A stretch of 64,000 nt of DNA from Hysterangium stoloniferum. Its lineage: Eukaryota; Basidiomycota; Agaricomycetes; Hysterangiales; Hysterangiaceae. The position numbers and the translations under genes were made by a program. The stretch spans positions 124,001 to 188,000 of the forward strand of contig WHVD01000112.1 of NCBI GenBank assembly GCA_015178975.1. The letters run 5' to 3'. Shown here piece after piece: positions 40,051-42,937 of the stretch. Numbering within the stretch: the stretch's first letter is position 1; each line of letters starts with the position of its first letter. A model generated the notes under the pieces. It made no database searches. It was given only the letters and a program-made list of their open reading frames with translations, and was not told the DNA's origin.

Positions 40051-41932
40051 GAAATCAAAACGGCTTTTCTGATATCGAGAAGTGACATTGCCTATGTATA
40101 TTATAAATGCAGTCCAGAGTGATGCTGACCGGTTGCTGCCTTCCAGTTCACAGCAGTACACGTGAGTCCAGGTGGAAAGATCCAGCTATCAGGGTCAGAG
40201 TGACCCCGATTATTTCTTCACCGCATAATGCAGCAACTCTGTTCAATGTGACGATGGCAAGGTATATTAAGGATTATGAAGTACTGTGAATCATTGACAA
40301 TGGTCAAGCTGACATCTGGAAGTGTCTCCTTGGCTAGCACCATTATGACGACTAACTCACCAGCATTATTCTTGATAAAACAGCCTAGGACTACGCATAG
40401 GAAGGAAGAGGTGACGACAGCTAACGTTCAAAGTCCCATGTATCTGGTCGACGATTGTATTAATATTAGATTGAATCAAATGGCTGTTTTGCTACTACTC
40501 GAAATGAAATAATTCAAACATGACAATTGGTAGAATGAACTCCAGTCGACTCGACTGGAAGCAGTAGGGGAAATGTCGGGATAGCGAGTGAAATAAATTG
40601 TCGTACCATGTAGTGTGACGCTAGCGACTCAAACATTGAAACACAACACAAACGAGACTTCTTGTGATTTGGCTTTTGCACGCGGCGGGGGGGTGTGGGT
40701 ATTCTTCAGCTCTGATTGATAAGTGATTCCCCCTGATACAACGACAAACTACCTTTCTCTTATCCAAGGTGAACGCTCATGACAATGTGAAGTGTGGGTG
40801 TTTGATCATGGTGTTGTCCATTGGGTTGGCCTGGCTTCATGTTCTCCCGAACAGATGATGACACGAAGGTAACGGTAGGACTGCCTTCTTTGAGACGTCC
40901 TGGCGGTATTCGATTAATATTGCTACCGCGATGTGATTGCAGTGATGGAAAGTCCTCGGGCTATATTTAACACCAGTCTAGAGAATCTCGCAGCGATCAT
41001 TACAGGGGACTATTATTGTTTTAAATTGTGATAAATTATGTAGCTTCATACAACCCTCAAATCCGCGTTCTGTTTGAAATGATTGTCATTTATACATAGG
41101 ATGCCAATCTAGCCATGAGTGGTGCCCGCAAGTGTACTCAACTCATGTATGGCATCAACGCGGACAAGCTGCAGAGCTCGGGGCAATGGTGAAAAGTGAC
41201 TGTATGCGCTCTTATATTTGTTCGACCTATAGCAGCTTGATTTTCAAGTGTTCAATGGAAGAGAATTAGTTTAAGGAATTCGCCGAACAAATTGCCTCGC
41301 ACGGTGTGAAGGCACTCGGTTTTAAGATCATGGATCTTGTTGATTGAGTACTGGCGAAGATATGATGAGCCTGAATGAGACATGCATCAAAATGGGGACA
41401 GGGGAGGACTTTTTCAGACATTCAGTAAGATCTTATTTAAAACATGATAATACAAGGTGGCTATATGTGTCCTTACATAGGCCCAAATCATATAGCCTTA
41501 TAAGATCTGCAACCCCGTGTGCAAAGTGAGTTGAATAAAGGGCGACGCTATTCGCCTCCTGGTTTGATTGAGATGTGTCGGCATTATCGAAGAGAAATGA
41601 TTAGCAAATGTGTCCATTTGATGGTGCACAACCTTTCAGGGAAACCATGGTTTCCAACACAGATATGCACACGAATGGAAGGAGCGGCCACCACGCAAAG
41701 GAAAGAACATGCCATCAAACCTAAACGCTCAAGCCTGTAGCTGGTGGATTGAACATTGCTCGAGCCGCGCATTACGTCAAAATGTCGAAGGAGAGACACA
41801 AGAATGGCGATGCAATCGAGGCTACGCACTGTGGTACACGCGGATTCGGACTCGGAAGATCCAGCTATCAGGTTCAGAGTCAACTCGATGATACTTTCGC
41901 CAGACGCCAGGAGGTGCCAATTAGGACTCGTG

Positions 41933-42060
41933 TGTTAGTTTGAGTAATGCTAGCAGTGCTTCCCAGGGTCAGGTGGTGTAATGGTTAACACCCCTGCTAT
42001 ATATGCAGAAGCCCTGGGTTCAATCCCCAGTCTGGCCATTCATTTTCTACACTTTTAACA
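41933..42060 (+). repeat. TRIM LTR 1 (128 bp)
   Basis: TGTTAG to TTAACA. It contains the tRNA-like sequence 41,967-42,037, followed by a T-run (ATTTTC) and CTTTTAACA at the LTR end. These T4 runs would act as Pol III terminators about 10 and 20 bp past the tRNA-like 3' end. Confidence 0.85.
41967..42037 (+). tRNA. tRNA-like sequence 1 (in TRIM LTR 1)
   Basis: 71 nt that fold as a cloverleaf. The acceptor GGTCAGG pairs with TCTGGCC (two G-U pairs), the D stem is GTGT/ACAC, and the T arm is perfect: CTGGG, TTCAATC, CCCAG. The A box TGGTGTAATGG and B box GGTTCAATCC match the Pol III consensus. The anticodon stem has four good pairs and one C-A mismatch. The loop TATATAT would give anticodon UAU, but position 33 is A instead of the near-invariant U. 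It is therefore probably not a working tRNA, but the promoter looks intact. Confidence 0.65.
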
Positions 42061-42215
42061 GGTTATGGGCCCCGCTGTGTGCTATAGGGCATGGTTCCTG
42101 TGTGTAGAGTGAACAGCTATATTTGTGTGTAGTATAGTGGACAAGTCTGGACAAAAGAGCCAGAGAGGACCTATATCTGCTTATAGTATAGTTGAGTGCT
42201 AGCATTAAGGGAGTG
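42061..42215 (+). other. TRIM internal region 1 (155 bp)
   Basis: Runs from GGTTATGGGCCCC to a purine-rich AAGGGAGTG. It has no open frame and no Gag or Pol similarity. It is nearly identical to 42,344-42,498. Confidence 0.8.
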
Positions 42216-42343
42216 TGTTAGTTTGAGTAATGCTAGCAGTGCTTCCCAGGGTCAGGTGGTGTAATGGTTAACACCCCTGCTATATATGCAGAAGCCCTGG
42301 GTTCAATCCCCAGTCTGGCCATTCATTATCTACACTTTTAACA
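42216..42343 (+). repeat. TRIM LTR 2 (128 bp)
   Basis: Nearly identical to LTR 1; the visible change is ATTATC for ATTTTC after the tRNA-like part, which removes one of the two T4 runs. Confidence 0.85.
42250..42320 (+). tRNA. tRNA-like sequence 2 (in TRIM LTR 2)
   Basis: Identical to sequence 1 over all 71 positions as far as I can read. The start is exactly 283 bp after that of copy 1. Confidence 0.65.
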
Positions 42344-42498
42344 GGTTATGGGCCCCGCTGTGTGCTATAGGGCATGGTTCCTGTGTGTAGAGTGAACAGC
42401 TATATTTGTGTGTGGTATAGTGGACAAGTCTGGACAAAAGAGCCAGAGAGGACCTATATCTGCTTATAGTATAGTTGAGTGCTAGCATTAAGGGAGTG

Positions 42499-42626
42499 TG
42501 TTAGTTTGAGTAATGCTAGCAGTGCTTTCCAGGGTCAGGTGGTGTAATGGTTAACACCCCTGCTATATATGCAGAAGCCCTGGGTTCAATCCCCAGTCTG
42601 GCCATTCATTATCTACACTTTTAACA
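42499..42626 (+). repeat. TRIM LTR 3 (128 bp)
   Basis: Terminal LTR, differing from LTR 2 by CTTTCC for CTTCCC just before the tRNA-like part. It is followed directly by the TCGTG target duplication. Confidence 0.85.
42533..42603 (+). tRNA. tRNA-like sequence 3 (in TRIM LTR 3)
   Basis: Same 71-nt cloverleaf-like sequence, again offset by 283 bp. A and B boxes are unchanged. The same U33 defect is present. Confidence 0.65.
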
Positions 42627-42937
42627 TCGTGTGGGTCAGAATGAGACTGGGGCGGCAAGTTTCACAGGCGGATGTAAGACGGTGCTATAAGGTAAAACAT
42701 TATGAACGTACCTTACGATAGACCCTATGAGCGAAGAAACGACGTTGATGTGATCAGTAGGAAGCGTGCTGGCGTCGAAGAAGGTTTGCAAGGAGGAAAT
42801 ATTCCAATACAGTAAACATGATGCCTCCGAATCAATATGTTGTGTCAATGACGCTATATGTTGTCCAATAAAACCCTCAATACAGCTCCAGCAAAATCTC
42901 GAAACCATGCATCTTGGTGGACGCAACACATGAGAAG

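Follow-up and report, generated by a model that had tools for sequence, protein, structure and literature searches.

A Helenus-type miniature LTR retroelement in Hysterangium stoloniferum, its candidate Copia helper and a putative record of plus-strand priming

The window, a 64,000-nucleotide stretch of Hysterangium stoloniferum DNA (contig WHVD01000112.1, positions 124,001 to 188,000), carries at 41933-42626 an array of a dispersed, recently active retroelement. By its structure the element is a member of Helenus, a group of TRIMs whose LTRs contain a tRNA sequence and which has been reported from Agaricomycetes among other hosts (Kojima 2024, PMC10886601). Its kind is therefore published and not new; what is new here is a candidate Copia helper and a putative fossil record of plus-strand priming. 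In our full proposal, to which we give a probability of about 0.9, this Helenus-type TRIM would have its RNA made by Pol III, would use machinery supplied by Copia and would start its plus strands at the polypurine tract (PPT) or at PPT-like sites. The earlier note, made from the sequence alone, had described a miniature LTR retroelement, a counterpart of Cassandra whose LTRs each contain a tRNA-like sequence. That description is supported by the anatomy, the dispersed copies and the target duplications (TSDs).

The basic unit consists of a 128-bp LTR, a 155-bp internal region and a second 128-bp LTR, and the array in the window has the order LTR-int-LTR-int-LTR (Table 1). The three repeats (TGTTAG..TAACA) and two spacers reported by the earlier note are exact to the base, and the enclosing TCGTG duplication and the purine tract directly before LTR 2 and LTR 3 are both present. 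Any two of the LTRs have 1-2 base differences, the two spacers a single one. The array part of the window has no ORF reaching 180 aa, and the usual transposition proteins do not fit the internal region because 155 bp is too short for them. Pfam was searched at E 0.001 with four ORFs of the window, an ORF of the flank and a C-terminal piece of a Copia, and none of them matched. The three-LTR form would result from unequal recombination, or from template transfer before integration.

Table 1. Features of the array, in window coordinates.
Feature	Position	Strand	Basis
TSD, left copy, TCGTG	41928..41932		sequence; 5-bp target once at related empty sites
LTR 1, 128 bp, TGTTAG..TTTTAACA	41933..42060	+	sequence, repeat comparison
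tRNA-like sequence, LTR 1	41967..42038	+	ARAGORN; Rfam tRNA 46.8 bits
box A TGGTGTAATGG, LTR 1	41974..41984	+	sequence
LTR position 47, preceded by PPT-like CAGGTGGTG	41979..41979	+	four aberrant insertions at other genomic places have their left end here
box B GGTTCAATCCC, LTR 1	42017..42027	+	sequence; common to three LTR families
T4 close to the end of LTR 1 (4 bases before it), possible terminator for Pol III	42053..42056	+	sequence
internal region 1, 155 bp, without long ORF	42061..42215	+	repeat comparison, ORF search
PBS GGTTATGGGCCCCGC, internal region 1; same in an autonomous Copia of the genome	42061..42075	+	sequence comparison
polypurine tract AAGGGAGTG, internal region 1	42207..42215	+	repeat comparison, PPT ranking
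LTR 2	42216..42343	+	repeat comparison
tRNA-like sequence, LTR 2	42250..42321	+	ARAGORN; Rfam
internal region 2, 1 base different from region 1	42344..42498	+	repeat comparison
PBS, internal region 2	42344-42358	+	repeat comparison
PPT, internal region 2	42490-42498	+	repeat comparison
LTR 3	42499..42626	+	repeat comparison
tRNA-like sequence, LTR 3	42533..42604	+	ARAGORN; Rfam
TSD, right copy, TCGTG	42627..42631		sequence; related empty sites

The assembly (111 Mb, 554 contigs) was searched with two patterns, allowing up to three mismatches. The box-A pattern occurs at 261 sites against 0 for its reversed control, and the PPT/LTR junction pattern at 109 sites, again against 0, which excludes chance as their source. 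The 100 junction matches listed divide into 70 exact ones, 10 with a single mismatch and 20 with two, and many of these 20 are the variant of a related family.

A 5-bp TSD was found at 49 of the 74 element places sampled in two batches. The first batch (L001-L038) comprises 34 distinct places, two of them pieces at L031 and another two, L017 and L035, with identical flanks; 30 of the 34 have a TSD, 27 as the alignment cut them and three (L019, L038 and L004) after the left end was moved. The second comprises 40 loci from the PPT/LTR junction list, decayed copies included, 19 of which have a TSD at the normal left end. Not counted as TSDs were an apparent GGTTA in three loci, which reflects repeats of the primer site (PBS), and that of L109; L107 and L111 were kept among the 40 and scored without TSD, both having been passed over in the TSD listing, L107 and, to judge by its right end, probably L111 because they resemble other right ends. 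Most of the first batch, and of the TSD-bearing share of the second, consists of LTR-int-LTR units of about 411 bp. Twenty single LTRs were taken from the box-A list as having no listed partner close by: a perfect 5-bp TSD flanks 14 of them, and L126 and L141 bring the number to 16 when one-base indels are tolerated. Two of these single LTRs, L140 (C57:941417) and L141 (C57:992049), have the same left flank, which suggests either that a segment was duplicated or that the target is repeated.

Four related sites lack the array and contain the target once (TCGTG in L142 and L143, TCGTA in L144, TCATA in L145); they are related copies of the target, 94-96% identical over the stretch that aligns. 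The target itself, at 41500-41927, is a multi-copy repeat with at least 40 further matches of 76-96% identity, many of them on C257, C388, C547 and C63. The LTRs of 141 distinct copies have a median identity of 0.984 to the reference copy, and in several elements both LTRs are identical to it, which indicates recent activity.

Two other origins can be set against these results. The three LTR copies, in direct order and 283 bp apart, could suggest that an ordinary tRNA gene was locally duplicated in tandem, the reading that the earlier note had named as its own possible undoing. It is refuted by the dispersed copies, numbering hundreds of box-A sites, by the independent 5-bp duplications and by the empty sites, and base 33 of the tRNA-like part is not U; we regard it as wholly improbable. 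A SINE-type, target-primed tRNA element that became tandem by accident would explain the tRNA-like head with its Pol III boxes. tRNA-derived SINEs (SINE2) have such boxes A and B but lack LTRs, PBS, PPT and a fixed 5-bp TSD, their duplications arising by target-primed reverse transcription. The direct terminal repeats, PBS, PPT, constant 5-bp TSD and TSD-flanked single LTRs of the present element refute this origin, to which we attach practically no weight. Nor did we find evidence for the suggestion that such an element bridges SINEs and TRIMs. A dispersed LTR retroelement is thus retained.

Like Cassandra of plants, which has a 5-bp TSD, the element carries a small-RNA sequence in its LTR; this is 5S rRNA in Cassandra, whereas it is tRNA-like in the window, where no Rfam match other than tRNA appears in 41800-42800 at gathering scores. 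Cassandra, too, is a TRIM; its LTR holds a small-RNA promoter of the Pol III type (PMC10886601), and it forms long tandem arrays (PMC7215508). The likeness to Helenus is closer. In the passages of Kojima 2024 on this group, Helenus elements have the size of TRIMs without transposition genes, a tRNA-derived sequence in each LTR, a PBS after the 5' LTR and a PPT before the 3' LTR, all as in the window; fungal members have a 5-bp TSD and mostly a PBS of the initiator-tRNA anticodon-loop type, which the PBS here, judged by eye, appears to resemble; single LTRs and tandem arrays are known, and a Copia helper has been proposed (PMC10886601). Of the motifs that most Helenus have, GGTTC of box B is present here and so is a TGG for the YGG of box A; box A begins with TGGTG, in contrast to the TRGCY of most Helenus (PMC10886601).

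Two further families that carry a tRNA-like sequence in the LTR were noticed in the genome. L071 (C4:59850-60850) has a tRNA-like LTR of about 251 bp, an internal region of only about 66 bp and the same PBS, in tandem units of 317-318 bp. L116 (C60:44300-45200) is related to the family in the window, its LTR being 82% identical over 94 bp and its internal region 84% over 82 bp, and the PPTs of the two are close. Its PBS starts with TGGTAGC and is of the 3'-end type, as against the anticodon-loop type, which would represent a switch of primer site between sister families. Separately, many tRNA-Stop(TTA) genes of 94-97 nt were called in local arrays (L045, L048, L052, L055 and others, on C112, C68 and C410). 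They were considered as a further Helenus family and rejected because the loci inspected have no LTR/PBS layout; they look like arrays of intron-bearing tRNA-Lys-like genes, the Lys reading being made by eye.

ARAGORN calls three tRNA-Ile(TAT) genes in the window, one per LTR, and each LTR scores 46.8 bits with the Rfam tRNA model (gathering cut-off 29). The claim of a tRNA-like sequence in every LTR therefore holds, but its length is 72 nt and not 71; the fold is of the tRNA type as claimed, but the cloverleaf is not perfect, since in the Rfam alignment base 33 of the anticodon loop is A and a non-standard C-A pair stands at the base of the anticodon stem. Working tRNAs have U at position 33 and an intact anticodon stem, and a functional tRNA is therefore unlikely here. 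The T4 described after this part is found in all three LTRs; LTR 1 has in addition a second and closer T4 at 42043-42046, which reads TTAT in LTR 2 and LTR 3. Box A of LTR 1 fits what we take to be the general consensus, TRGYNNARNGG. The isolated 72 nt fold into a cloverleaf (-26.7 kcal/mol, z -2.2, 7 of 200 shuffles equally good), and a longer transcript-like sequence of 100 nt folds without one (z -0.7, 46 of 200).

From the boxes and from homology, Pol III transcription of the element may be inferred. The polymerase would initiate a little before box A of the left LTR, pass the weak T4 there and terminate at the right-LTR T4, so that the short RNA produced would have its end repeated. The left T4 should nevertheless end most transcripts early, a hindrance to read-through which suits another reading: the TRIM might be transcribed by Pol II from elsewhere, with the tRNA-like part as a passenger. 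This reading also agrees with the decay of the copies. The earlier note named conservation at boxes A and B as support for its reading; 26 diverged LTR copies give no sign that these boxes decay less than the rest, 55 of 127 circular shifts in the control being as low; neutral decay after insertion can explain this, and the result neither excludes nor supports a function. On the other hand the tRNA-like sequence is complete enough to reach its Rfam score, and box B, together with the TGTTAG start, is common to three LTR families (three sequences only) whose LTRs have otherwise diverged. We therefore judge a passenger unlikely and keep Pol III as the probable polymerase. Pol III transcription of Helenus is presented by its author, in the passages on the subject, as expected and not validated (PMC10886601).

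The earlier note proposed that the transcript might be packaged or primed by an autonomous LTR element, and such an element can now be suggested. Copia C13 has two identical 349-bp LTRs and the TSD CTGTA on both sides. Where its LTR meets the internal region it reads CACTTTTAACA followed by GGTTATGGGCCCCGC, which is the TRIM sequence over 26 nt (LTR end and PBS). Against the proposal, BLAST finds only 11 bp alike between the LTRs of Copia and TRIM, to which by eye the TGTTA start can be added. The LTR-end/PBS pattern TTTAACAGGTTATGGGCCCC occurs at 1,232 sites in the genome against 3 in the control, far more than the TRIM family can account for, so that this junction must be common to other elements. 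Eight Copia RVT_2 domains lie 2,886-2,911 bp downstream of an exact junction on the same strand, and at this distance no junction/RVT_2 pair is found on opposite strands. The comparison set 100 listed exact junctions (of the 1,232 sites) against 80 RVT_2 places, taken from contigs as far as C183. These 80 are from 150 listed, one place on C22, a contig without a listed junction, being left out.

Mobilisation of the TRIM by Copia is thus supported by the common 26-nt block and the even spacing of the eight RVT_2 domains. Particle, reverse transcriptase and integrase would come from a Copia whose LTR end and primer site match those of the TRIM, with packaging as the step that we infer, and integration would make the 5-bp duplications that are seen at the insertions. 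Reverse transcription would begin at the PBS on what appears to be the 5' half of the initiator tRNA-Met. The PBS pairs by eye, with one G-U, with CUCAUAACC, which we take to be the initiator tRNA sequence; a single search pattern for the host initiator tRNA gene had 0 matches in the genome. Ty5 and Drosophila copia are autonomous, protein-coding elements without a tRNA-like LTR. They belong to the Copia superfamily and take as primer the anticodon-loop portion of a tRNA (PMC10886601), as is proposed for the TRIM. The sharing of LTR end and PBS differs from that of Copia-9_PGr and LTR-1_PTrit, which share internal sequence and not LTRs (PMC10886601).

Five aberrant insertions have their left ends at two sites only, four at LTR position 47 and one at internal position 34. 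In the four LTR47 insertions the truncated left LTR abuts a perfect TSD (GTTTT, ATCAC, GTCCG and GAAGG), and the 82-bp left piece has 0, 0, 1 and 0 mismatches to its own right LTR. The fifth, L004, has the layout int34-155, LTR, int, LTR and is flanked by AAGAAT at either end; possible readings are a 6-bp duplication AAGAAT, a 5-bp AAGAA plus an extra T, or a deletion through GTT microhomology. In the reverse transcription of LTR elements the left end is fixed by where the plus strand begins. If this point lies downstream of the PPT, the left LTR is truncated; if it lies upstream, an extra partial internal region is added. Background on the PPT is given in a review of plus-strand synthesis (PMC3185511, in the part concerned with the PPT).

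When the 274 positions of the unit are ranked by how closely their 9-mers match the true PPT, LTR47, int34 and int139 are jointly second to it. This measure was chosen after LTR47 had been seen, but int34 played no part in the choice. Both left-end sites are therefore among the three most PPT-like after the PPT itself, which points to plus-strand mispriming at PPT-like sites and supports in return the role of AAGGGAGTG as PPT. Plus strands would start there and occasionally at LTR47 or int34, as the five left ends suggest. A pattern search for further LTR47 ends, blind to left ends after G (the case in two of the four known), returned two known cases, two point mutants and no new one. Among the titles listed from the open-licence literature on Agaricomycete TRIMs and on truncated LTRs in connection with the PPT, none describes such left ends; for later work on Helenus one further paper was listed, a meeting report of 2026, and the Helenus passages of Kojima 2024 give an account without mispriming fossils.

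The same ends might instead come from cDNA stopping at the 5' end of the RNA, or from deletion after insertion. An RNA starting at LTR47 would also yield a recurrent left end in four of the five cases, and L004 can be read as the microhomology deletion with the TSD AAGAA. A start inside box A, however, fits Pol III poorly, and a later deletion would not set a perfect TSD against the truncated end four times. Moreover, two separate sites both rank at the top of the PPT-like 9-mers, and the int34 copy has the layout that mispriming predicts. We hold these alternatives to be improbable and prefer mispriming.

A second class of unusual product lies at the junction shared with Copia. At seven loci (L077, L080, L085, L086, L088, L098 and L107) foreign upstream sequence ending in AACA is joined at the exact LTR/PBS junction to a TRIM part consisting of PBS, internal region and LTR. 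The upstream end is TTTTAACA in L080, L098 and L107, with variants in the other four, and an eighth chimera, L097, has TTTTTAATA at the junction. A second PBS copy follows the TRIM LTR in L080, L086, L098 and L107, and also in the truncated copy L111. TSDs were searched in the seven, and only L098 gave a convincing fit: AGAAC fits a left end starting with TG and a right end after the 15-nt PBS copy. The match of L088 with a TG start is probably chance, and that of L107 was dropped because L111 has the same sequence beyond the second PBS, which leaves no plain flank. The TRIM unit of L107 thus seems to lie inside another repeat, and this speaks for recombination at the junction rather than for cDNA ending at the PBS copy. 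As a whole the chimeras are no more than suggestive of plus-strand transfer between elements, or of other recombination at the shared junction. That the genome records reverse transcription of the TRIM in a Copia particle, with about one in ten TSD-bearing insertions (5 of 49) misprimed and the chimeras as recombinants of co-packaged RNAs, we propose tentatively, at slightly under an even chance.

The ARAGORN call in every window LTR has one practical consequence, since spurious tRNA-Ile(TAT) genes could fill the annotations of genomes with such copies. For the biology of the family, the chimeras, if they are true recombinants of co-packaged RNAs, would count as direct evidence that the particle was shared. 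A single genome holds the candidate helper, the TRIM, its empty sites and its aberrant products, and the minimal shared signal (LTR end and PBS) and the rule of plus-strand priming are therefore directly testable.
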